Origin: a virus
Reading direction: 5' to 3' (one strand)
Virus record (IMG/VR): IMGVR_UViG_3300037493_002212
Coordinates: 1 to 27,738 of that record
DNA: 27,738 nt
Part shown: positions 5,400-26,207 of the stretch, in pieces
Numbering within the stretch: the stretch's first letter is position 1
How the letters are laid out: every line of letters begins with the position of its first letter
Made by a program: the position numbers and the translations under genes
Notes under the pieces: generated by a model
Told to the model about the DNA's origin: nothing
Databases searched by the model: none
Seen by the model: the letters and a program-made list of their open reading frames with translations, nothing else

Positions 5400-6136
5400 T
5401 GAAGCTGAAAGTTATCTCTTCCGGATCCGTTGGAAATTGTTATATTCTTGAGGCTTCCGACATCGCTCTTTTAATCGAGTGCGGTGTCAAGTTCTCGGAA
5501 ATCAAACAAGCGGTGAACTTTGATCTTATGAAGATTCAAGGCTGCGTTGTTACTCACGAACACGGTGACCACGCTCGAAGTATCTCTCAAGTTATGCAAA
5601 TCGGAGTGCCGGTCGTTGCATCGAAAGGGACCTTCGAAGCCTTGAAAATTGACGAATATCGAGGAAACGTTTCAATCAAACACGGACAGAAAACAAACAT
5701 CGGAGGATTTCAAGTTTCAGCGTTATCGGTTGAGCACGACGCAAAAGAACCGCTCGCATTTTTGATTGAACACGAAGAATGTGGTCGAGTTTTATTTGTT
5801 ACTGATACTTTTGTTTTCAAATACTCAATTCCAAATATTGACCATTTAATTATTGAGTCCAATTATGATGAGAAGATCGTCGAAGCAATCCAAGAAAAGA
5901 AAGGAGTCGATTATGTAAACAAAAGGAGATTCAAGTCTCACATGAGTTTTCAAACAACGATCGAGACAATTTCAAAAATGGACCGCTCCTCAATTAAAAA
6001 TATTGTATTGATACATTTGTCGGATCAAGTTTCAAACGAAAGAGAGTTCAAAACAGAAACTGAACAATTGTTCGGAATACCAACCACCGTGGCGACTTCG
6101 GGGCAAGTCGTTAATTTTAGTAAAAATCCATTTTAA
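5399..6136 (+). CDS. YycJ/WalJ-like metallo-beta-lactamase-fold hydrolase, candidate exonuclease
   Basis: A 245-residue protein with the full metal-binding set of the metallo-beta-lactamase fold: HEHGDH (His53, His55, Asp57, His58), His113, Asp136 and His206. The N-terminal SSGSVGNCY and the later SHMS (180-183) plus IHLSD (205-209) resemble the YycJ/WalJ group, whose studied members degrade double-stranded DNA from the 5' end. Start and RecT stop overlap by one base. Hydrolases of this fold often sit next to RecT genes in phages that lack RecE, lambda Exo or YqaJ-type nucleases. The inferred role is making single-stranded tails for RecT. Substrate and polarity are inference; a role in other phosphodiester hydrolysis is possible. 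Confidence 0.78.
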   Translation: MKLKVISSGSVGNCYILEASDIALLIECGVKFSEIKQAVNFDLMKIQGCVVTHEHGDHARSISQVMQIGVPVVASKGTFEALKIDEYRGNVSIKHGQKTNIGGFQVSALSVEHDAKEPLAFLIEHEECGRVLFVTDTFVFKYSIPNIDHLIIESNYDEKIVEAIQEKKGVDYVNKRRFKSHMSFQTTIETISKMDRSSIKNIVLIHLSDQVSNEREFKTETEQLFGIPTTVATSGQVVNFSKNPF

Positions 6137-6147
6137 AAATCAAAGCA

Positions 6148-6600
6148 ATGGAAAAACAATCATTTAAAGTCGGAGATCATTATGATGAAAAGGTCGCTGC
6201 GCTTCCGCTTCAAGAACGGAAAGATGTTCTCGAGGGTATTTGTTATAAAATGACAAACGAATCCTACACGAAGCAGCTTTCTCAAGAAGAGCAAACAGAA
6301 AAGAAACACGAACTCGCAGAGATTAGTATCTTGATTTCGGAACTCGAGCAAAAAAAGAAAGCAATTCTATCTGAATTGAAAGTCGAAATGACGACTCCTC
6401 TCGAGGAAAAATCGGAACTTTTAAAAGCGATCAAATACAAATCAGAAACAAGAACTGGAATTCTTTTTTATATCGACGATCAAGAATCTGGAACGATGTA
6501 TATTTTCGACGACAACGCAGTTTGTGTTGAGTTCCGTCCTCTTCGACAAGAAGAAAAACAAACAAGAATGAGAACCTTAAACATTGCAGGAAATGAGTAA
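6148..6600 (+). CDS. Hypothetical protein with central coiled coil
   Basis: A 150-residue acidic protein that I do not recognise. Residues about 45-75 form a likely coiled coil (for example ELAEISILISELEQKKK). The C-terminal part has alternating hydrophobic residues (TGILFYIDDQESGTMYIFDD), which suggests a small beta domain. There is no signal peptide, membrane segment or catalytic motif. It starts 11 bases after the hydrolase gene and its stop overlaps the next start in the string ATGAGTAA. It is probably an accessory protein of the replication and recombination block. Confidence 0.55.
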   Translation: MEKQSFKVGDHYDEKVAALPLQERKDVLEGICYKMTNESYTKQLSQEEQTEKKHELAEISILISELEQKKKAILSELKVEMTTPLEEKSELLKAIKYKSETRTGILFYIDDQESGTMYIFDDNAVCVEFRPLRQEEKQTRMRTLNIAGNE

Positions 6601-7384
6601 CGAGAACGAAAACAACGAAGGAAACAAAGAGGGAATATCAGCTGCGAAAGAATTCGCGAAAGCCTTCGAAAGCATTGGAGTAATTATGAGTCATATCAAA
6701 ACAATGAATCCAGAGGTTATTCTTGCTTCTCGGAAAATTTACGACGTAAAGGCCGACAAGGACGTGACTATCTCTGGAGCAATTGACTCACCTAGAAGAT
6801 GGCTCCAAAGAAGAGAGGAGACTTTTAATAAATTAGAATCTCACGCGCTTGTTGATTACGATAAAAGATCGATTGAATTAGTTATCAACGAGACGAACTC
6901 AAATGGTGAACACTACCAAATAAAAGGGCAGATCCAACTATCGGAAAAGTTCACGGATCTTGGAATTAATTCATCATGTCAGTCATATTCTCCCGTCGAA
7001 CTTGCTAACAAGTTGAAACTTTTGAGATCAATCTTCCCTCAAAAAGGTGACCACGCGATAATTGTCAATACGTTGAGAAACTTAAAGGCAAAGATCAACA
7101 AAGCGATGGAACAGACCGACGATCGAAGAGGAAACACTTCGAACAGTTTCGAGCAGACAGTCGAGTCAAATATGCCTGAGTCGTTCAAAATCTGCATTCC
7201 TTTAATCAAAGGAGCGAATCCGATCGAGATTGAACTCTCGGTGATCCTTGAGGCAAAATCTGGAGAAATTAGATGTTTCCTGGAGTCGGTCGAAGCAGCA
7301 GAAAAAATCGACGAGATTTCAGAGAAATTGATCTCGGAAGAAGTTGCGTCTATTGAGGAGTTAACGACCGTAATTTTTAAATAA
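6593..7384 (+). CDS. Hypothetical protein, DUF2303-like layout
   Basis: A 263-residue protein. The ATG at 6593 is preferred over the in-frame TTG at 6584 because it forms the compact ATGAGTAA overlap with the previous stop and follows GCAGGAA. Visible blocks are VTISGAIDSPRRWLQRREE at about 58-76, a central helical part, and PESFKICIPLIKGANPIEIE at about 196-215 followed by FLESVEAAEKIDE. This order (an early repeat-like strand block, then IP-x-F-x-x-x-IP-x-x-x-G and a closing helix) resembles the DUF2303 family that occurs in phage recombination loci. The match is by eye and weak. The role is unknown. Confidence 0.5.
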   Translation: MSNENENNEGNKEGISAAKEFAKAFESIGVIMSHIKTMNPEVILASRKIYDVKADKDVTISGAIDSPRRWLQRREETFNKLESHALVDYDKRSIELVINETNSNGEHYQIKGQIQLSEKFTDLGINSSCQSYSPVELANKLKLLRSIFPQKGDHAIIVNTLRNLKAKINKAMEQTDDRRGNTSNSFEQTVESNMPESFKICIPLIKGANPIEIELSVILEAKSGEIRCFLESVEAAEKIDEISEKLISEEVASIEELTTVIFK

Positions 7385-9982: not shown

Positions 9983-10449
9983 CAACGAAGAAAACCGACA
10001 ATCCAAAATCACCGAGAAAGAAAGCAGTTCCGAAGGAAAAGAAAGTCCCTCTTCGAGAAGAAAAAACTGACAAAGTGATTCAGGTAATTGAAAATGAGGG
10101 ACTTAGCTTAACGAGAGCGTGTAAGAAGGTTAAACTTGCGAGGTCGGATTTTCACGAGGTTGTCAATAATGACGCTAAAAGAGCGGACGAATACGCGCGT
10201 GCGCGCGAAAAGAGAGCAGAACTTTATCTCGAGGAGACTATCGAGATAGCTGACGACGAAACTCAAGATAAAACTCCTTTCTATGGAGCAGTCAAAGTTA
10301 AACGCGATCAATTGAGGATCGATGCCCGTCTCAAATACCTTGCGACTATGTACCCGAAGAAATACGGAAACAAACTTGAACTATCTGGAGACAAAGAGAA
10401 TCCACTCCAGGTGACGGTTTTTCAATTACCCGACAATAAACGAGATTAA
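9979..10449 (+). CDS. terS: Terminase small subunit
   Basis: A 156-residue protein. After a lysine-rich N-terminal tail of about 28 residues comes a helix-turn-helix-like block (GLSLTRACKKVKLARSDFHE at about 43-62). A helical segment follows with YARAREKRAELYLEETIEIA, and near the end RIDARLKYLATMYPKKYG then GNKLELSGDKENP. These last two blocks are typical of terminase small subunits that recognise the packaging site and deliver DNA to the large subunit. The gene lies one base into the terminase large subunit gene (TAATG), the classical arrangement. Confidence 0.88.
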   Translation: MTTKKTDNPKSPRKKAVPKEKKVPLREEKTDKVIQVIENEGLSLTRACKKVKLARSDFHEVVNNDAKRADEYARAREKRAELYLEETIEIADDETQDKTPFYGAVKVKRDQLRIDARLKYLATMYPKKYGNKLELSGDKENPLQVTVFQLPDNKRD

Positions 10450-17262: not shown

Positions 17263-20064
17263 ATGGAGGATAAAACAATTTTGTTGAAAGTTGAACTCGA
17301 CGTGGCTCAACTAAAAAAAGCAGGTGAAGAGGCAGCAGCGAAACTCGATCAACTTAAAGTGAAACAAACTTTAATGCGAAACGAATCGAAACAAGGTTCT
17401 CTCGAATACGCGAAACTATCTCAAGAAATTCGTAAAACCTCGAAGGAGTTAAACGACAACGCGAAAGCGATCGAGATAAACGACCGACTCAATAAAAAGA
17501 ACTCGGGTTCTATGAACGAGATGAAAGATCAAATGCTTGCAGCAAAGATCGCTCTCGGTCAAATGTCGGAGGAAATGAGAAAGTCCGAAATCGGTCAGCA
17601 ATTGATCGCTGATATTGACGCGATGAATAACTCCTTAAAGGACACGGAGGAGTCTTATGGTCAATTTGGGAGAAACGTCGGAAACTATGCTGGCGCACTT
17701 GCTGAGTTGAAAAAAGAACTCAAAGCGATGAAAGGAGAAATGGTCGGACTCGACGCAGACTCCGAACGTTATCAAGAACTTTCAACTCAAGCTGGTATAT
17801 TAGGCGACAAAATTAAAGAGGTCAATGAAAACGTAGCTGCTCAAAGTGGGGGAACTGGATTCGAGAAACTTTCCAACAACTTCGGATTAATTCGAGGAGA
17901 TCTTGAGAATCTTGATTTCGCTGGAGTCTCGGAAAAGATGGGCCAAATGGCCCAGATCTCAAAGTCGATGACTTTCAAGGAAGCATTAGGAGGTTTAAAA
18001 AATATGGGTTCCTCTTTGATTTCTTTGGGAAAAGCGATCCTTTTAAATCCTTTGTTTTTAGTTGCAGGAGCAGTTGTCGGAATCGTCGCTGCTTTGAAGA
18101 TGTGGAACGATTCAGTCAAAGCCGAAGCCGTAGCAGCACAAAAGGCTCATACTCAAGCAATTGAGGACACAATCGCGATGATGGACAAACAAGCGCAACG
18201 AGGCCAGGAAATTTCCGATTTGTTTATTAAACGAGCGGAACTCGAAGGAAAGTCAGCGAAAGAGATCGGAGACATGAAACTCAAGGCGTTCGACGATGCA
18301 AACAAAAGCGAAAAGAAACAAATCGAGGAACATCGAAAAGCGGTCGAATCATTACGAAGAGAGTCAAAACTTGCGGAATCGGAAGAGGATCGAAAAGCGT
18401 TAAAAGACAAAATTAAGGAACATCTTGAGGCTGAGGACGATTTGATCTTCAATCAGACTTTTTATTCAGCAAGGAGAAAAAATCTCGAGATCGAAACAAA
18501 CAACTCAATCCTTGACGAGACGAAAAACTCAAATGAAAAGAGAAAAGCCGAATCTCAAAAAGCCTATGACGACCGAATTTCCCTCGAGAGAAGAATGTCG
18601 GATTTGTTATTGAATGGAATAACGCTTTCAAACGACAACGAAGAGAAACGGATCCTCGCAAAGTATGAATATCTAGTCGCAACCGCTGAAGGAAATAACG
18701 AGGAGTTGATCCGATTAGAAGGAGAAAAGAATCAAGAACTCGCTTCTCTCGATATTAAAACAAAGGAAGAGGAGATCTCAAGAATCACGGAGCAATACCG
18801 CAGAGAGATTGAGGACGCGAAAGGTAAAAAAGACATAATTGCTCAACTCAAGAAAAATGAAGCCCTAGAGAAGGAGCAAATCGATATTGAGTATGAAGCA
18901 AAAAAGAAGGCTCGAGATATTGCTTTCCAAAATCAAAGCGAACAATTAGAGAAAGAGAAGATCGCTCAAGCAAAAAGAAATGCTTCGGAAATTGAATTGA
19001 TCGACTCTCAGATTAATCTCCTAAAGGCCAAAGGAACCGAAGCTGAATTCTCAGCATGGGCTGACGTTCAATTCGCAAAGATTCGACAACTTGAAACGAT
19101 CGCTGCTCTCGAGTTGGAAAATGCAAACTTGACCAAAGAGGAGAAAATCAAAATCGCAAAAGAGACTGAACTCGCAATCGCTCAAATTCAAGTAGAATCA
19201 TTTGAGAAGTCAAAGGAGACAACTTCGAAGCAAAATGAATGGACCGTTGAACAAAAGAAAGATATGGCCCTGGCTTCGGTCAACGCTGCGCAGCAATTGT
19301 CGGACTCACTCTTTCAAATTGCTTCTAATCAAATACAACAAGAACTCAACGACGAGAAAGAAAAATATGATACAAAAACCGAGTTTTTACAAAACCAACT
19401 TGATAATGCTTTAATCACTCAAGCTGAATTCGACGCTCAAAAATCTGCGCTCGATTCTCAATACAACGCAAAGGAGAAAGCGTTGAAAGAAGAGCAATTC
19501 AAGAAAAATAAAGCGAGTCAAATAATTAACGCAACAATCGCCGCAGCGGTCGGAGTTGCGAACGCACTTGCTGCTCCTCCTCCTGCTTCGTTTATTATGG
19601 CGGGGATCGCTGGAGTTCTCGGGGCTGCTCAAATTGCTCTCATTGCATCTCAACCGACTCCGACTTTTGCTCGTGGTGGTGTTGCAAAAGAAGGAACCTT
19701 CGGAGGCCGTTCACATTCTTCAGGAGGCACGAGAGGAGTTTTTGAGGACGGAACACAAGTCGAGGTCGAGAAGGATGAAAAGTTCATCGTTATAAACAAG
19801 AATTCCTCAAGGATGATTTCTGCTCTTTCAAACTTAAACGTCAGAGGAGGAGGAATTCCGTTCATGCAAAATGGAGGTGTTTTGAAATTTGCTTCGGGTG
19901 GTTCGTTTGCTTCTGCCGTATCTCAACCGACTCAAGATCGAATTGATTTCCAAATTCAAATGATTCAGGCCTTGAAAAGTTTACCTCCTGGACGAATCCT
20001 TGTTGAGGATATAAACTCAGCGCAGGGAAATTTGGCCTCCGTAGTTGATCGAGCGAATTATTAA
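17263..20064 (+). CDS. Tail tape measure protein
   Basis: A 933-residue protein, by far the longest here. The N-terminal 200 residues are alpha-helical and K/E/Q-rich. A hydrophobic segment follows at about 250-277 (LFLVAGAVVGIVAALKMW) and very long coiled coils occupy about 280-740. A second hydrophobic, alanine-rich stretch lies at about 750-795, and the end is glycine-rich with repeated FARGG/FASGG motifs, as in tape measure proteins of Bacteroidota phages. It sets tail length and may help DNA cross the host membrane. The length suggests a tail on the order of 130-140 nm by the usual 1.5 angstrom per residue rule, which points to a long-tailed phage; this is an estimate only. Confidence 0.88.
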   Translation: MEDKTILLKVELDVAQLKKAGEEAAAKLDQLKVKQTLMRNESKQGSLEYAKLSQEIRKTSKELNDNAKAIEINDRLNKKNSGSMNEMKDQMLAAKIALGQMSEEMRKSEIGQQLIADIDAMNNSLKDTEESYGQFGRNVGNYAGALAELKKELKAMKGEMVGLDADSERYQELSTQAGILGDKIKEVNENVAAQSGGTGFEKLSNNFGLIRGDLENLDFAGVSEKMGQMAQISKSMTFKEALGGLKNMGSSLISLGKAILLNPLFLVAGAVVGIVAALKMWNDSVKAEAVAAQKAHTQAIEDTIAMMDKQAQRGQEISDLFIKRAELEGKSAKEIGDMKLKAFDDANKSEKKQIEEHRKAVESLRRESKLAESEEDRKALKDKIKEHLEAEDDLIFNQTFYSARRKNLEIETNNSILDETKNSNEKRKAESQKAYDDRISLERRMSDLLLNGITLSNDNEEKRILAKYEYLVATAEGNNEELIRLEGEKNQELASLDIKTKEEEISRITEQYRREIEDAKGKKDIIAQLKKNEALEKEQIDIEYEAKKKARDIAFQNQSEQLEKEKIAQAKRNASEIELIDSQINLLKAKGTEAEFSAWADVQFAKIRQLETIAALELENANLTKEEKIKIAKETELAIAQIQVESFEKSKETTSKQNEWTVEQKKDMALASVNAAQQLSDSLFQIASNQIQQELNDEKEKYDTKTEFLQNQLDNALITQAEFDAQKSALDSQYNAKEKALKEEQFKKNKASQIINATIAAAVGVANALAAPPPASFIMAGIAGVLGAAQIALIASQPTPTFARGGVAKEGTFGGRSHSSGGTRGVFEDGTQVEVEKDEKFIVINKNSSRMISALSNLNVRGGGIPFMQNGGVLKFASGGSFASAVSQPTQDRIDFQIQMIQALKSLPPGRILVEDINSAQGNLASVVDRANY

Positions 20065-20087: not shown

Positions 20088-20342
20088 ATGAGTAAAGAGG
20101 AAAAAAAGCAAGTTACAGCTATTGAGGTTTTGGATCGATTGTATGATTCGGGGGAATTGCACCAACTTCTTGACGCTGGATTGATCTCGGTTAATGTAAT
20201 CGTATGGAGAAAGATTTATCACGCTTACAACTTGAGATTATCTCAAGGAGTTAATTCTTTACAGGCTGTTTCGGACACTGCTGACGTTTTTCGGATCTCC
20301 GATCGTTCCGTGTATCGAACAATCGAACGACTAAAAAAATAA
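20088..20342 (+). CDS. Small helix-turn-helix-like protein
   Basis: An 84-residue protein. The C-terminal third, SLQAVSDTADVFRISDRSVY followed by RTIERLKK, reads as a helix-turn-helix: a helix with A-V-S-D-T-A, the turn around FRIS and a recognition helix starting DRSVYR. The N-terminal half is helical and could form a dimer. It stands alone after the tape measure gene, 23 bases downstream. Plausible roles are control of the accessory or head genes, or a DNA-binding assembly factor. Family assignment would need a profile search. Confidence 0.58.
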   Translation: MSKEEKKQVTAIEVLDRLYDSGELHQLLDAGLISVNVIVWRKIYHAYNLRLSQGVNSLQAVSDTADVFRISDRSVYRTIERLKK

Positions 20343-20354
20343 ATTCAAATCAAA

Positions 20355-20738
20355 ATGCAAAAAGATAAATCAACATTATCAAACGGAGATATTCTTCATT
20401 TCAAGTATAAAGGGCCACTCCGATTTTTTAAGAAGTTAAATCCGACTCAATCAGCCGTATTTTTAACAATCAGTGGAATTGACGTTGTGGCGACCGTAAT
20501 CGACGGAAGAGTTATTCTCCTTGATTGGTTTTCGTTTGATCGTCAATTTCAATATGTTTCGAGTTCTCCTCTTTGGAAAAAAAATCCTTTGAGAGCGGTT
20601 CTCGTTAAAATATACTCGAAAGATTATAAAAACTCGGATCAATTTATCGGAGAAATTCTCGGAGCGAAAGATTTCTCTCGATTCAAGAAAGGAGACGTTT
20701 TAAAATATTGCGTAAAGAACGGATGGCTGTCGGTGTAA
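20355..20738 (+). CDS. Hypothetical protein
   Basis: A 127-residue protein with a strand-rich core (LSNGDILHFKYKGPLRFF, then AVFLTISGIDVVATVIDGRV) and a second GDVLKY near the C-terminus. The GD-x-L-x-F opening recalls peptidase folds of the NlpC/P60 and YiiX type, but no catalytic cysteine and histidine pair is in the expected place. The function is unknown. Its 3' end overlaps the next gene by 16 bases. Confidence 0.48.
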   Translation: MQKDKSTLSNGDILHFKYKGPLRFFKKLNPTQSAVFLTISGIDVVATVIDGRVILLDWFSFDRQFQYVSSSPLWKKNPLRAVLVKIYSKDYKNSDQFIGEILGAKDFSRFKKGDVLKYCVKNGWLSV

Positions 20739-21361
20739 TTATTCCAGATCGAGGAGACAGGCCTCAATTCTTGAAGCATTTATTCTTTATGCTTGACCGT
20801 CAAACCGTGAAGCCAGATTTTATTGAGTTGGTAAATTACAAAGCAACCTCAAAGGCTCCAGATCTGACTCCTCGAATTCGCTTCGGTTTCGATTCCCTCA
20901 AGAAAAAAGGGTGTGACGTTGTTCTAATTATGGAGAATGACGATTTCTATTCGGAGGACTACATCGAAACGATGCTCTTTCTTTGGGAGTTAAACGGTAA
21001 GCCCGAAATATTTGGTACAAATTCAACGATTTATTATCATATCGGAAAGAGAGAGTTTCGAAAGCTGGAACACGAAGGACGAGCATCTTTGATGAATACC
21101 TTGATAAGTACAAAGGCAGATATCCAATATCCGAACGATTCGGAAGTTTATCTCGATATGTTTATATGGAAGCAATTGAAAGGAGTCGCGGTTGATCCTT
21201 GTCGAGTTATATCGATCGGAATAAAACACGGGTTCGGACTTTGTGGAGGAAACGGACACAACGGAATGCAATTTAAAAACAAAGACAAAGATCTTTCCTT
21301 TTTGAGTTCGAAGGTTGATCCGATTAGTTTGGAGTTTTACAAATCTTTTTTCAATGATTGA
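20723..21361 (+). CDS. Glycosyltransferase-like protein (GT-A fold)
   Basis: A 212-residue protein starting at the ATG at 20723; the in-frame TTG upstream at 20708 is less likely. The first strand VGVIIPDRGDRPQFL is followed by a helix and FIELVNY, as in family 2 glycosyltransferases where the nucleotide-sugar binding loop follows a strand. The acidic MENDDFY (70-76) sits where the metal-binding DxD motif belongs and is followed by YIETMLFLWELNGKPEIFG. It probably transfers a sugar from an activated nucleotide donor. It is the first of four accessory genes that look like glycan modification enzymes. Donor and acceptor are unknown. Confidence 0.62.
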   Translation: MAVGVIIPDRGDRPQFLKHLFFMLDRQTVKPDFIELVNYKATSKAPDLTPRIRFGFDSLKKKGCDVVLIMENDDFYSEDYIETMLFLWELNGKPEIFGTNSTIYYHIGKREFRKLEHEGRASLMNTLISTKADIQYPNDSEVYLDMFIWKQLKGVAVDPCRVISIGIKHGFGLCGGNGHNGMQFKNKDKDLSFLSSKVDPISLEFYKSFFND

Positions 21362-21839
21362 TATTCACCCGACTGCTGTCATATTTCCTGGGGTTGTAAT
21401 TGAGGACGGAGTCTCGATCGGTCCATATTGTATTATAGGAGCCAAAGCCGAATACAGAAAATTTTGGAATTCCGAGTCTTTGTTCTCGGTCATAATAAAG
21501 AAAGGAACGATTATCACTGGACACGTAACGATTGACGCGGGGACTGATAAGCACACGGAGATAGGAAAGGATTGTTTTATTATGAAAGGTGTTCATATTG
21601 GACATGACGCGACGATTCGAGACGAGGTGACGCTTTCTCCTCACGTTGTAATTGCTGGACATTGCGAAATTGGAGAAAGAACGAATATGGGAATCGGTTC
21701 GATTGTCCATCAACATATAAAAATTCCCGAAGATTGTATGATCGGAATGAATACAACCGTAACAAAAAGGACTCATTTAATTCCTAACTGGGTTTATATT
21801 GGATCTCCAGCGGAGAAACTTCGAAAAAATAAAAAATGA
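21354..21839 (+). CDS. Left-handed beta-helix acyltransferase (hexapeptide repeats)
   Basis: A 161-residue protein starting at the ATG at 21354, which overlaps the previous stop by eight bases (ATGATTGA). Hexapeptide repeats fill the protein: IHPTAVIFPGVVIEDGVSIG, then IITGHVTIDAGTDKHTEIG, VHIGHDATI, VVIAGHCEIG and NMGIGSIVHQHIKI. The end, PNWVYIGSPAEKLRK, is the usual close of sugar O- or N-acyltransferases, related to LpxA and serine/UDP-sugar acetyltransferases. The likely role is acetylating a sugar, with acetyl-CoA as donor. It lies between two glycosyltransferase-like genes. Confidence 0.85.
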   Translation: MIDIHPTAVIFPGVVIEDGVSIGPYCIIGAKAEYRKFWNSESLFSVIIKKGTIITGHVTIDAGTDKHTEIGKDCFIMKGVHIGHDATIRDEVTLSPHVVIAGHCEIGERTNMGIGSIVHQHIKIPEDCMIGMNTTVTKRTHLIPNWVYIGSPAEKLRKNKK

Positions 21840-22594
21840 ATTTACATTTACTTTATACCTATTTTGATGGGTTTGATCAGTTAGTCGAATCGATTGAAAA
21901 AATGATTGATAACGTCGATCAAGTTACGGTTTGTTTTCAAACTCGATCCAATAAAGGGCAAAGGAGAATCGTAAACAAACGCTGCGAGATTATCGATGAA
22001 ATGTTTCAACTCGAGAAGAGATTTCCTTCCGTTAATTTTTTGAAGTTCAGTCCAGATATTTCAAAGACAACAAACGAAAACGAGAGAACGAAGCACAACG
22101 AAATGATTCAAAAGGCAAAGAGAGAAGGATCAACTCACTTCATCCTTGCTGCTTGTGATCACGTTTATTCAAAGGAGCATATTGAATATGGTAAAATTAT
22201 AATGGAGGCCTATAATTATGACCTTTGCATTACTTCAATGTTTACTTATTATAAAACAAAAGAATGGAGGCTCGATCCTTTAGAGGATTATTTTATGCCG
22301 TTTATTCATAAGATGTACCCAAATACGGAAATATTTTTAAAAGAATATCCGGTCCTGGTCGATCCGGCCGTGACCGTTAACACTTCGAGAAGTTTAATTG
22401 TGTTGGATCCGGAGGAATGTATTCTTCATCATTACTCGATGATTCGAAAAGATATGGAATTGAAATTTCGGAATTCAGCTGCTTCCGTCAATTGGTCCTC
22501 CGAAGAGTTGGAAACTTTTATTCGAGAGTATAACGAGGCCAAACTCGGAGATAAAATCACGTATTTTGGTGGTCGTAAATTGGTAAAAGTTTAG
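21836..22594 (+). CDS. Glycosyltransferase-like protein
   Basis: A 252-residue protein in an ATGA overlap with the acyltransferase. It begins LHLLYTYFDGFDQLVESIEK and has ILAACDHVY (103-111), where an acidic residue ends a strand as in GT-A enzymes. Near the C-terminus ILHHYSMIRKDMELKFRNSA is a pattern seen in several glycosyltransferases, where a histidine-rich H-x-S strand leads to a basic helix. The exact family is not certain. The gene ends in TAG, and its last 38 bases overlap the gene on the opposite strand. Confidence 0.52.
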   Translation: MNLHLLYTYFDGFDQLVESIEKMIDNVDQVTVCFQTRSNKGQRRIVNKRCEIIDEMFQLEKRFPSVNFLKFSPDISKTTNENERTKHNEMIQKAKREGSTHFILAACDHVYSKEHIEYGKIIMEAYNYDLCITSMFTYYKTKEWRLDPLEDYFMPFIHKMYPNTEIFLKEYPVLVDPAVTVNTSRSLIVLDPEECILHHYSMIRKDMELKFRNSAASVNWSSEELETFIREYNEAKLGDKITYFGGRKLVKV

Positions 22595-23096
22595 AAAGTT
22601 CCGAGTACTTATTCCCAACGTATAAAACGACTCCTCTCTTTTGAAGTTCAATCGAGAGGTTTTTAAAATCGTTTAACGCTCGATCCTTTGAATTCCCTTT
22701 GAAATGTTTGTGGGTTTTGAAATCAACTCCGTGAAGTATTATTTCTTTCGCTCCTAACTTATAAGCCAAAACCGTGGCGACGTATGGAGATGAATTCGAA
22801 TAACAAAATCTATCTGAGTCCAATCCGTCAAGAATTCCTCGTCCTCGATTGAATTCTATTTTTTGAAAGTTTTCGACCATATAAAGATGCCACTCGAATA
22901 ATTGAGAATAAAATCCTTTGCACTCGGTTTTGAGAATTGTCTCGAGTCGTTCAGGAGAAAAAACCTCAGGATGATCAACGCAAACAACAAAATCTGTTTT
23001 TACTCTCGAGTAAATATCGTTGACTCCGATCGAGATATTTCCGTCCTCTTTGTAATATTTTAGACTTTCACCAAGTCCTAACACGTTTATAGTCAT
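22557..23096 (-). CDS. MptE/DUF115-like Rossmann protein, lone minus-strand gene
   Basis: A 179-residue protein and the only gene on the minus strand. The start chosen is the ATG at 23096, which begins MTINVLGLGESLKYY; an upstream in-frame ATG at 23150 would add 18 unlikely residues. LGLGESL resembles the GxGxSL loop of MptE/DUF115-type proteins. A second block has SIGVND and a DFVVCVDHPEVF strand. Near the C-terminus, YVATVLAYKLGAKEIILHGV followed by D is the conserved A-x-x-L-G-x-x-x-I-x-L-x-GxD block. Such proteins occur with glycan and flagellin-glycosylation genes, and sialyltransferase-like relatives share the same layout. The 3' end overlaps the + strand gene by 38 bases. It may act with the sugar genes beside it. 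Confidence 0.62.
   Translation of the reverse strand: MTINVLGLGESLKYYKEDGNISIGVNDIYSRVKTDFVVCVDHPEVFSPERLETILKTECKGFYSQLFEWHLYMVENFQKIEFNRGRGILDGLDSDRFCYSNSSPYVATVLAYKLGAKEIILHGVDFKTHKHFKGNSKDRALNDFKNLSIELQKRGVVLYVGNKYSELSKLLPIYDHQNT
22633..22664 (+). terminator. Candidate intrinsic terminator for the tail/accessory operon
   Basis: CCTCTC (22633-22638) pairs with GAGAGG (22654-22659), and the inner TTG/CAA can extend the stem around a loop; five T residues follow (22660-22664). It lies 39 bases after the stop at 22594 and would end + strand transcription while sitting inside the minus-strand gene. Confidence 0.42.
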
Positions 23097-23134: not shown

Positions 23135-23142
23135 TACCTTTG
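23135..23142 (+). promoter_or_regulatory. Bacteroidota-type -7 element for the head operon
   Basis: TACCTTTG is an exact TAnnTTTG. It lies 30 bases before the ATG at 23173. The -33 element is weak (a TTTC near 23108). It sits in the 76-base divergent gap between the minus-strand gene and the protease gene and would start a separate head operon near 23149. The in-frame TTG at 23140 overlaps this element, so the ATG at 23173 is the better protein start. Confidence 0.5.
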
Positions 23143-23172: not shown

Positions 23173-24294
23173 ATGGTTGGAAACGTTCATATTATCGGTC
23201 AAATCGGAAACTCCTACAAAGAGGACGGATCGATCCTTGAGAAAGGAGTCGAACTTGTTGACGTTATTTCACAAGTCGAGCCTTTGAAAGATTGTGAAAT
23301 AATCAACGTATGGATTAATTCAGGAGGAGGACTTGTTTCGGTAGGCGACGAAATCGCAAATTATCTGGCCTCAAAGAAAAATGTCGTTACAATCGCAGAC
23401 GGTTTTTGTGCCTCAATCGCTACAAAGATACATTTGTCGGTTCCGTTGGAAAACCGAAAAGTGGTTGCTGGAACTCAATACATGATCCATAATCCTTTAT
23501 TCTCGGAGATCAAAAACGCGAACGCGAACGACTTGAAAGAGGCTGCAGCGGTTTTGGAACCGATTCAAAAAGGACTCGTTTCGATGTACGTCAAATCTAC
23601 TGGAACATCAAAACAAGCGATCCAATCATTAATGAATTTGGAGTCTTCACTTTCGGAGGAGGATCTTATTAATTTGGGTTTTGCTTCGGAGATAATCAAC
23701 AAAGTACAGTTGAAAGCGGTCGCGTTTATCGATCAAAAAAAAGTAATCAATTCAAACACAAATATGTCAAACGTTAAACTAAACCTTTTTCAAAGAGCGA
23801 TGGCGAAAGTCAACGGTCGTGAAATTAAGGCGATCGTGGAAGATGTTGAGCAAGGGACAATAGAAACTCCTTTCTCAGATCTTATGGTCGGAGATCCTAT
23901 TATGTTAGGAACCGAAGCTGCTCCAGCTGATACTTACGTATTAAGCGACGGAACACAAATCGTTGTTACCGAAGCTGGTATCATCGGAGAAATTATCGCT
24001 GCGAGCGGTGATCCTGTTGAGTACACGGATTTGATGAACAAAATCGCTGAATTACAAGCTGAGAACACGGCTTTGAAATCGGAGAAAGAAGCACAAAACG
24101 CTGTAATTGCAGAAATGGAGAACGAACACAACGAGGTTCTGGCGGTCGTTAATCAGTATAAAGCGAAAGACAAGTCGTCTTTTGTTCCTCCAGCTGCGAC
24201 GGCTTCTTTCAAAAGAACTCCAGGAGGAGAACCTTCAAAAGTTGAGGCGTTGGCGCAACGTAGAGAGGAATTAAAAACCAAAAAAACAAAATAA
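23173..24294 (+). CDS. ClpP-type prohead protease with fused scaffold-like tail
   Basis: A 373-residue protein. The first 190 residues follow the S14 (ClpP) pattern: INSGGG (48-53), the nucleophile in GFCAS (Ser81) and the histidine in MIHNP (His106). A strand-rich linker follows with DTYVLSDGTQIVVTEAGIIG at about 258-277. Next comes a coiled coil at about 290-330 (for example MNKIAELQAENTALKSEKEA), and the basic end is typical of internal scaffolds. This reads as a protease-scaffold fusion that directs capsid assembly and then removes the scaffold. It lies four bases before the capsid gene. Confidence 0.83.
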   Translation: MVGNVHIIGQIGNSYKEDGSILEKGVELVDVISQVEPLKDCEIINVWINSGGGLVSVGDEIANYLASKKNVVTIADGFCASIATKIHLSVPLENRKVVAGTQYMIHNPLFSEIKNANANDLKEAAAVLEPIQKGLVSMYVKSTGTSKQAIQSLMNLESSLSEEDLINLGFASEIINKVQLKAVAFIDQKKVINSNTNMSNVKLNLFQRAMAKVNGREIKAIVEDVEQGTIETPFSDLMVGDPIMLGTEAAPADTYVLSDGTQIVVTEAGIIGEIIAASGDPVEYTDLMNKIAELQAENTALKSEKEAQNAVIAEMENEHNEVLAVVNQYKAKDKSSFVPPAATASFKRTPGGEPSKVEALAQRREELKTKKTK

Positions 24295-24297
24295 GAA

Positions 24298-25389
24298 ATG
24301 GCACTTTTTGATCCAAATGAATTAAATTTCAACGGTGACGAGTTAAAATCGTCAGCAACAGCCGTATTCGAATCTGCGTTCAGTACGCAGGCAGTCGGAG
24401 AATTGATGACCGTGGTTAACGGAATCAAAGCAAAAACACAAATCGCAATTTTAGGTCGTTTCACAAGTTTACTTGGTAACGGTTCAGGACTTTGCAAAAC
24501 GGAAGGGAGAACGGTCAAAACTTCAATGTCTCAAAAACTTTGGGAACCAGCAACGGTTTCTGATAAAATTGGATATTGCTGGAACGACTTGAAAGGAACT
24601 TTCTGGATTTGGGGGACGAAAAACGGAATCGCGAAAGCTGATTTAACTGCGACGGATTTCTTGATCTACATTGAGGAGTTATTGACGGTTGAATTAAAAG
24701 AAACGGTTTTGAGAATCGGATGGTTTAACGATACAGACGCAGCGAATTTCAATGATTCACCTGCCGGAGTAATTACGAACACAACTGACCTGGCTTTCTT
24801 CAATAAGATTGACGGAATATGGAAACAGTTGTTCACAATCGGAACAGCAAACGCTGCAAGAATCACTTCAGTTTCTTCCGGAATTACAGCGAAAAACGGT
24901 CAAGCGAATTATACTCTTCAGGCATTTGACGCAACCGATACGACGAACAGAATCGTCATGAAAACTTTGGAGAACATGGGCTATGAGGCTGACTCTCGAT
25001 TGATGGAACAGGAGGGAATTGTCTACATCGCGACGAAATCCGTGTATGACCAATACCAAAAAGAGTTGAAAGCAGCGAACATTGCCTACACTACAGAGAG
25101 ATTGGAAAACGGAATGACTCAACTTATTTGCGGTGGTATCACAATCGTTCGTTATGAGTTTTGGGATCGTATGATTAAGGCTCATTTTAACAACGGAACA
25201 AAGTACCACATTCCTCACCGTGTTATCTTGGCAAATCCAGATAATTTGCAAATCGGAACGGAAGATGAGTCGACTTTGTCTGAGTATAAAGTATGGTTCT
25301 CGGAGGACGACGACACCGTGTATGTAAAGTTTCAATTCGACATCGACGCGAAAGTGATCGAGGATGAAATGGTCCAAATGGCATACTAA
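24298..25389 (+). CDS. Major capsid protein
   Basis: A 363-residue protein directly after the protease-scaffold gene. The sequence begins MALFDPNELNFNGDELK and has the long helical/extended N-terminal part and a C-terminal ITIVRYEFWDRMIKAHF then YHIPHRVILANPDNLQIG. These last blocks are typical of HK97-fold capsid proteins of Bacteroidota phages. Protein length is normal for the fold. A strong terminator follows its stop, consistent with high expression. Confidence 0.82.
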   Translation: MALFDPNELNFNGDELKSSATAVFESAFSTQAVGELMTVVNGIKAKTQIAILGRFTSLLGNGSGLCKTEGRTVKTSMSQKLWEPATVSDKIGYCWNDLKGTFWIWGTKNGIAKADLTATDFLIYIEELLTVELKETVLRIGWFNDTDAANFNDSPAGVITNTTDLAFFNKIDGIWKQLFTIGTANAARITSVSSGITAKNGQANYTLQAFDATDTTNRIVMKTLENMGYEADSRLMEQEGIVYIATKSVYDQYQKELKAANIAYTTERLENGMTQLICGGITIVRYEFWDRMIKAHFNNGTKYHIPHRVILANPDNLQIGTEDESTLSEYKVWFSEDDDTVYVKFQFDIDAKVIEDEMVQMAY

Positions 25390-25396
25390 AAAATCG

Positions 25397-25426
25397 GAGG
25401 AGGATTTAAGGATCCTCCTCTTTTTT
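25397..25426 (+). terminator. Intrinsic terminator after the capsid gene
   Basis: GAGGAGGAT (25397-25405) pairs perfectly with ATCCTCCTC (25412-25420) around TTAAGG, followed by six T residues (25421-25426). It lies eight bases after the capsid stop. The stem closely resembles the hairpin at 7607-7635. Confidence 0.78.
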
Positions 25427-25448
25427 CAAAACCTTTTAAAAAATAAAG

Positions 25449-26207
25449 ATGAAAACTTTAAATTTAATTATCTCAATTTTGTTCGTCGTCCTTTCCTTGT
25501 TGTTAGGTAGTGCGATCGTTTCCTTTGCTGGAGTCCCTCCAGTTCTTTCCATTGCGATTGTTTTCGGTTTTGCCGTTTCTTTTGCCCTATTGGAAAAGTA
25601 TTCGTTTAAATTCCGCTCCTTTGGATATGGGCTCTCGTTTGTTACGGTTTGCGGTAAAATATCGGCCAACATTACGAAATCTTGTACAAATCCACTTCAA
25701 GCAGGAGTCAGGGATCGAGCGATCATTATCAATTATACCGATTTACTAGACAAGGTGTATGCAACCGACGGAGAAACGATTGAGGATATTCTTCTAAACT
25801 CTGGAGCGACCGCATTTCAAATTGACGGGAAAAATAACTCGATCAAACCAAAAGCCACAATGATAGGACAAGCCTATGAAAATATGTTTGATCATTCCGT
25901 CGAGGTTATCGGATTCGATATTTCTCCCGAAACAAAAGCGGAACTAAACGCAGGGAAAAACGGTCGATACATAATCATAACCGAGAATTATTTCAAAGGA
26001 GACGCAGGAGAATCTGCCTTCGAGGTTTACGGATTAACGACGGGACTTGAGATCACCGTGATTGAAAGAGATCCAAATGATCAAGATACTCAAGGAGCGT
26101 TTAAAATTACATTCATGACGAAAACCAACAAGGAGCCGAAACTACCGAACGGATTCTTTGACACGGATTACGCGACAACAAAAGCAATTGTCGACGGCCT
26201 TTTGTAA
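25449..26207 (+). CDS. Structural protein with N-terminal membrane domain
   Basis: A 252-residue protein. Residues 4-48 form two hydrophobic segments (LNLIISILFVVLSLLLGSAI and PPVLSIAIVFGFAVSFALL). From about residue 66 the sequence changes to CGKISANITKSCTNPLQAG and is soluble and beta-rich to the end. The second part resembles structural proteins that follow the capsid gene in Bacteroidota phages and normally start near the CGKIS block. Here no ATG, GTG or TTG lies in frame just before that block, so the two parts appear fused. Whether the membrane part is kept or removed is unknown. A terminator precedes and another follows. Confidence 0.6.
   Translation: MKTLNLIISILFVVLSLLLGSAIVSFAGVPPVLSIAIVFGFAVSFALLEKYSFKFRSFGYGLSFVTVCGKISANITKSCTNPLQAGVRDRAIIINYTDLLDKVYATDGETIEDILLNSGATAFQIDGKNNSIKPKATMIGQAYENMFDHSVEVIGFDISPETKAELNAGKNGRYIIITENYFKGDAGESAFEVYGLTTGLEITVIERDPNDQDTQGAFKITFMTKTNKEPKLPNGFFDTDYATTKAIVDGLL

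Follow-up and report, generated by a model that had tools for sequence, protein, structure and literature searches.

In this phage genome, the tail and head operons meet at a slot whose cargo varies among relatives and which here contains a four-gene glycan cassette. The phage is an uncultured, tailed, siphovirus-like virus, probably of a Bacteroidota host, and the glycan enzymes probably decorate phage particles or the host surface. Our leading model, which we hold tentatively and at slightly less than an even chance, is that soluble enzymes made late in infection use sugar donors from the host to add a glycan to a protein that the phage itself makes (a virion protein), and that swaps of the outer enzymes alter the glycan.

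Results

A glycan cassette lies between the tail and head genes

We analyzed a virus record of 27,738 bases, the whole of which we call the window. It has a siphovirus-like gene order: the terminase gene is at 10449, tail genes lead up to a tape measure gene at 17263-20064, and a ClpP-type head maturation protease and the capsid gene (24298) lie downstream. The slot is marked on its left by an 84-aa helix-turn-helix (HTH) gene at 20088-20342 (plus strand; Pfam HTH_23, 0.0053), and on its right by the protease (ORF from 23140; conserved ATG at 23173, ending at 24294; plus strand), which matches PF00574 (1.1e-20) and the PHROG head maturation protease. The cassette, at 20723-23096, consists of four genes encoding a glycosyltransferase (GT1), a hexapeptide acyltransferase (LbH), a second probable glycosyltransferase (GT2), and a DUF115/MptE-like protein. 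A preliminary description of this DNA had reported just such a set of glycan-assembly enzymes between tail and head genes; the genes are found there, and for three of the enzymes fold and family support the identification. A detail absent from that description is that the DUF115 gene lies on the minus strand, antisense to the other three.

The plus-strand genes follow in the order p127 (encoding a 127-aa protein discussed below), GT1, LbH and GT2, with overlaps of 16, 8 and 4 bp, and continue the tail operon. The four cassette genes are more than chance open reading frames, as homologues code for the same proteins at 50-65% identity. Judged from pairwise dN/dS values of ~0.05-0.15, all four are under strong purifying selection (GT1, ~0.07-0.13, and DUF115, 0.05-0.15, in the closest pairs; LbH and GT2, ~0.05, from one pair each). 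None of the four proteins contains a hydrophobic stretch.

Predicted activities of the cassette proteins

Structure prediction identifies GT1 (20723-21361, plus strand) as a GT-A fold, family-2-like glycosyltransferase. Its AlphaFold2 model (pLDDT 90.5) aligns over ~160 residues with the GT-A enzymes SpsA, WrtF, TarP and RmlT (VIA Z 14-15), with SpsA at Z 14.7 (Foldseek 1.6e-6), and its structural neighbours include transferases that build surface glycans, namely the teichoic-acid enzymes TarP, TarS and RmlT. In Pfam searches, PF00535 did not match GT1 of the window itself and matched 6 of 12 homologues (best 1.4e-6). The protein carries an acidic DxD-type motif, NDD (N72, D73 and D74), and a conserved GIKHG...GGNGH; E71, D73 and D74 are invariant across the 12 homologues, which read either ENDD or EDDD. 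A phage of an unrelated type (L054/L055) also encodes a GT1 homologue, located among its genes for virion proteins and packaging.

The DUF115/MptE-like protein (22557-23096, minus strand) is predicted from its model to be a single-domain glycosyltransferase of the Maf/CstII type. The best structural match to its AlphaFold2 model (pLDDT 90) is the Maf glycosyltransferase 5mu5 (Z 14.0, rmsd 3.3, 169 residues), followed by MptE-type HPPK and then by CstII sialyltransferases. The structure-based searches proposed in the preliminary description returned GT-A enzymes for GT1 and Maf for DUF115. Maf proteins have a three-domain architecture whose central domain, PF01973, resembles Cst-II, and enzymes of this class glycosylate Ser/Thr residues of flagellin (PMC11339370). 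At 179 aa, the phage protein is a bare single domain whose match to Maf is confined to the central catalytic domain. PF01973 scores 19.0 bits on the window protein (E 0.0013), below the curated cut-off of 34.6, and matches 13 of 15 homologues (best 2.4e-5). Sequence conservation extends to H129, D125 and an LGxGE loop near the N-terminus, which are candidates for the catalytic and CMP-binding residues of GT42 enzymes. Stand-alone proteins with the DUF115 fold also occur in other uncultured phages, the best BFVD match being 43% identical. DUF115 was not found in a genome collection, nor were DUF115 and GT2 found in 395 Bacteroidota genomes; both searches were run without a positive control, so these absences are weak.

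LbH (21354-21839, plus strand) is classed by sequence as an LpxA-like hexapeptide sugar acyltransferase with a left-handed beta-helix. It matches Pfam Hexapep (PF00132, 6e-21), its nearest PDB entry is 8e62 (1.4e-45), and its alignment to LpxA 4eqy runs through vHIGHD and keeps the GHD region of the catalytic histidine. We rejected its identification as LpxA itself: it scores 104.8 bits against the NCBIfam LpxA equivalog, whose cut-off is 226, and its 161 residues do not include the LpxA C-terminal helical domain. A match to NeuD was also far below cut-off.

GT2 (21836-22594, plus strand) is probably a GT-A enzyme, and is the weakest identification of the four. Its homologues are 26-52% identical, and two of them match PF00535 marginally (0.017). 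A profile match to SpsA was likewise marginal (0.054) and was not reproduced with a broader alignment, and the GT2 and GT1 profiles showed no significant similarity to each other. The motif HH.S..R.D is invariant in GT2 and its homologues, while at the DxD position the window protein carries ACDH, without the first Asp present in some relatives. Searches with tblastn also found homologues in Lak phages; one of these (L071:3968-5863) forms the N-terminal part of a 631-aa protein that can be read only with TAG as Gln.

Slot content is variable and nested

Single-sequence searches of viral contigs with GT1, GT2 and DUF115 returned no relatives. Alignments were required, and with alignments of capsid, DUF115 and GT1 we gathered ~20 contigs that share the junction. 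Two contigs that matched through ClpP only (L006 and L011) proved to be unrelated high-GC phages and were discarded. Searching with tblastn using GT1, DUF115 and two distant homologues, we found no cultured phage record that carries the set.

Among the relatives, gene order is constant from the tape measure and HTH genes to the ClpP and capsid genes, and the cargo between them varies. L002 has only p127 and an antisense DUF115; in L021/L023, a fibre-like gene and a gene for a C92-type protein accompany DUF115; G002 and G008 carry p127, GT1 and DUF115. GT1 and DUF115 are found in L015, L016, L019, L020 and L026, preceded, in contigs that extend far enough, by a long gene, fibre-like or otherwise, and L025 has an additional methyltransferase in its slot. 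The full GT1-LbH-GT2-DUF115 set of the window recurs in L017 and L022. L052/L053 carry GT1, another glycosyltransferase, a 2OG-Fe(II) oxygenase, GT2 and an antisense DUF115. In the distant contigs L028-L030, several glycosyltransferases are followed by DUF115 on the late strand, accompanied by an epimerase in L030 and by a methyltransferase and a GT32-like enzyme in L029. The junction lacks recognizable glycan genes in L056 (a Mucilaginibacter prophage), L035 and the cultured Bacteroides phage BS-TP3.

DUF115, which is antisense throughout the near clade, is present in every glycan-bearing slot, and GT2 and LbH are never found without GT1 in the loci seen. By gene content the slot is modular, and its modules are nested: DUF115 comes first, GT1 joins it next, and GT2 and the acyltransferase come last. 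In a capsid tree, the GT1-lacking L002 and L021/L023 fall within GT1-bearing groups, and two distinct lineages carry LbH with GT2. In the GT1 tree, G002/G008 cluster with L017/L022, a conflict with the capsid tree that suggests exchange. The preliminary description had pictured an inserted cassette. GT1, GT2 and the acyltransferase do come and go, whereas DUF115 is a near-constant resident; and by the criterion set in that description, individual losses show that the set is not an indivisible unit. Recent insertion of the whole cassette in one piece can be rejected, as DUF115 and GT1 have occupied the slot for longer.

Other cargo in the relatives' slots comprises fibre-like, methyltransferase, patatin-like and secreted-protein genes. 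The fibre-like protein (461-470 aa; L015:7522-8904, L022/G010 18277-19683 and L025/G012 24080-25492) has a conserved N-terminus, MKIYKKGNYI..., and is encoded between the HTH gene and the cassette; it is absent from the window. In L056, the slot (5699-6951) contains a pair of secreted 164-aa paralogues, perhaps further moron cargo, beside the tape measure gene. The 2OG-Fe(II) oxygenase (L053:7313-7981) shows weak similarity to YhhC, an oxygenase that modifies peptides.

Flanking genes and promoter signals

Almost every relative has an HTH homologue adjoining the tape measure gene, whether the cassette is present or absent. One is retained in L056, which has no glycan gene in its slot, and the gene in the same place in BS-TP3 is annotated as a Mor-domain protein. 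Because the HTH gene is constant at the junction whatever the cargo, the earlier suggestion that it might control the cassette is unsupported.

Between the HTH gene and GT1, p127 (20355-20738, plus strand) has no Pfam match. Its 160-aa homologues (L021:6519-6998 and L025:7648-8127) match PF05708 (1.9e-5) and NCBIfam YaeF/YiiX, and retain the His/Cys motifs SHTA and ICSEF, both of which p127 lacks. From these comparisons, p127 appears to be a degenerate, catalytically dead relative of the C92 (YaeF/YiiX) permuted papain-like enzymes, and not a glycan enzyme.

A Bacteroidetes-type -7 box, TACCTTTG (23135..23142, plus strand), lies ahead of the ClpP/capsid operon. Of the 12 near-clade loci listed, 11 carry the pattern TAnnTTTG in the DUF115-ClpP interval, oriented toward ClpP; its background frequency is 0.05 per 100 bases on each strand. 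The one locus without it is L022, where a 94-aa gene intervenes. Being related, these loci are not independent observations. This conserved box implies that the cassette ends the tail unit and that the head unit starts separately. In most relatives (L015, L021, L025, L036 and others) the ClpP ATG follows the box by only a few bases, and the head operon mRNA may, from this spacing, be leaderless. Scans for sigma-70 promoters and terminators gave nothing useful above chance, and are uninformative here because Bacteroidota promoters differ.

Functions absent from related records

We searched seven records, alongside positive controls; two of the seven carry 123-bp terminal repeats and are therefore complete. 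These records contain no NeuB, GtrA, Bac_transf, integrase (tyrosine or serine recombinase), resolvase, or thymidylate-synthase-type hydroxymethylase, while the positive controls were detected; the window itself is incomplete. Given the absence of NeuB, a nonulosonic donor, if one is used, must be supplied by the host. The lack of GtrA, Bac_transf, recombinases and hydrophobic stretches argues against serotype conversion of the gtr type.

Discussion

In the model that we lean toward, the enzymes would be soluble and made late, alongside the structural proteins. The Maf-like DUF115 protein would add the first sugar to a hydroxyl group of a phage-made, probably virion, protein, and by analogy with its family might use a CMP-nonulosonic or similar acid from the host. 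GT1 and GT2 would then lengthen the chain, and the LpxA-like enzyme would acylate the sugar or the sugar nucleotide. When outer enzymes are swapped or lost, the glycan, and hence the virion surface, would change. The 2OG-Fe(II) oxygenase encoded beside glycosyltransferases would fit hydroxylation of protein side chains before glycosylation. We favor a phage-made protein as the target because of the late position of the genes, the soluble enzymes, and a Maf-type transferase class that modifies Ser/Thr, and also because of the oxygenase in a sister cassette and the GT1 homologue in the structural and packaging region of L054/L055. A more specific proposal, which we consider rather doubtful, is that the stand-alone Maf catalytic domain starts cytoplasmic O-glycosylation of a virion protein, and that gain or loss of glycosyltransferases, acyltransferase and 2OG hydroxylase in the slot makes the glycan growing and exchangeable. 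Position in the slot is by itself no proof of a virion role, since the slot also holds fibre-like, secreted and patatin-like cargo. The antisense DUF115 gene is not simply co-transcribed with the cassette, and GT2 of the window lacks a full DxD; both points count against the model.

Enzymes of these types also build capsule and O-antigen in the cytoplasm of the host, whose glycans could instead be the target. On this view a surface glycan of the infected cell (O-antigen, capsule or S-layer sugar) might be modified on the cytoplasmic side, masking the receptor and so excluding other phages or keeping progeny from sticking to debris. We regard this as quite possible, if not probable, and as a real rival: it fits the enzyme types nearly as well as a virion target does, given TarP, TarS and RmlT among the neighbours of GT1, and given that an LpxA-like enzyme and, in relatives, neighbours of the GT32, epimerase and methyltransferase types are all characteristic of loci for envelope glycans; several slots also contain the fibre-like gene. 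We nonetheless favor the virion, as the seven records offer no membrane protein, GtrA or initiating lipid-linked transferase, the absence of integrase and resolvase makes lysogenic conversion unlikely, and a late-operon position leaves little time for envelope remodeling. The enzymes might also share no pathway, with independent glycan-type moron genes piling up in a permissive slot and acting separately on host metabolism or glycans. Variable content, single-gene losses, the unrelated cargo in the same slot, and the grouping of G002/G008 in the GT1 tree would all suit such a history; we think it unlikely, because content is nested and not random, with DUF115 in every glycan-bearing slot and GT2 and LbH always with GT1, and because the GT1, LbH and GT2 genes overlap one another in the window.

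The preliminary description had also raised modification of a nucleic acid. For DNA, glycosylation by the cassette enzymes as protection from restriction strikes us as very improbable. The seven records lack a thymidylate-synthase-type hydroxymethylase, no base-hypermodification family appeared among the scanned genes of the window or G010, and G010 has ordinary N6/N4 methylases instead. Neither DUF115 nor an LpxA-like acyltransferase is known to belong to a DNA-glycosylation pathway. On the other side, virus-encoded glycosyltransferases that hypermodify DNA are known, as reported in work cited in PMC12619734 (Pyle 2024).

Phage glycosyltransferases, serotype conversion, DNA glycosylation, mycobacteriophage virion glycosylation and flexible gene modules are all known already. 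The glycosyltransferases Che8 gp110 and Corndog gp38 of mycobacteriophages modify capsid and tail-tube protein, according to the accounts of Freeman 2023 in PMC12363180 and PMC12619734. The likeness to our cassette lies in phage-encoded glycosyltransferases as a kind of enzyme; the present cassette, known from genes alone, has a Maf-like transferase and an acyltransferase. With the Maf flagellin glycosyltransferases (PF01973; 5mu5, CbMaf), the DUF115 protein has the fold of the catalytic domain in common, but it lacks the Maf N- and C-terminal domains and its activity is predicted. Its match to the CstI/CstII sialyltransferases (GT42) extends over the full length (Foldseek 3.6e-7, Z ~11), but at only ~15-20% identity. 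TarP, a prophage-encoded teichoic-acid glycosyltransferase, is a phage enzyme with the GT-A fold (Z 14.3 to GT1), yet GT1 has the core domain only, and teichoic acid would be absent from the inferred Gram-negative host. The gtrABC serotype-conversion cassettes likewise modify glycans, but the records tested here have no GtrA-type membrane protein and no integrase. The flexible gene modules of aquatic phages (PMC7468147) similarly combine a fixed position with interchangeable cargo, sometimes glycosyltransferases; the excerpted text of that survey describes neither this slot nor a DUF115-centered module. In a limited open-access set of literature we found nothing on phage DUF115/Maf proteins, and within that set the slot and its Maf-like constant member appear to be undescribed.

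Most phage glycosyltransferases are annotated singly, without a target. A fixed slot with nested content provides a natural series, from DUF115 only, to DUF115 with GT1, to the set with GT2 and the acyltransferase, and comparing virions or hosts across this series could reveal both in which sequence the glycan is assembled and on what target. Phages use sugar coats to evade recognition or to exclude rivals. If the target is the virion, virion glycosylation would extend from mycobacteriophages to phages of Gram-negative Bacteroidota, and would include a Maf-type initiating enzyme.
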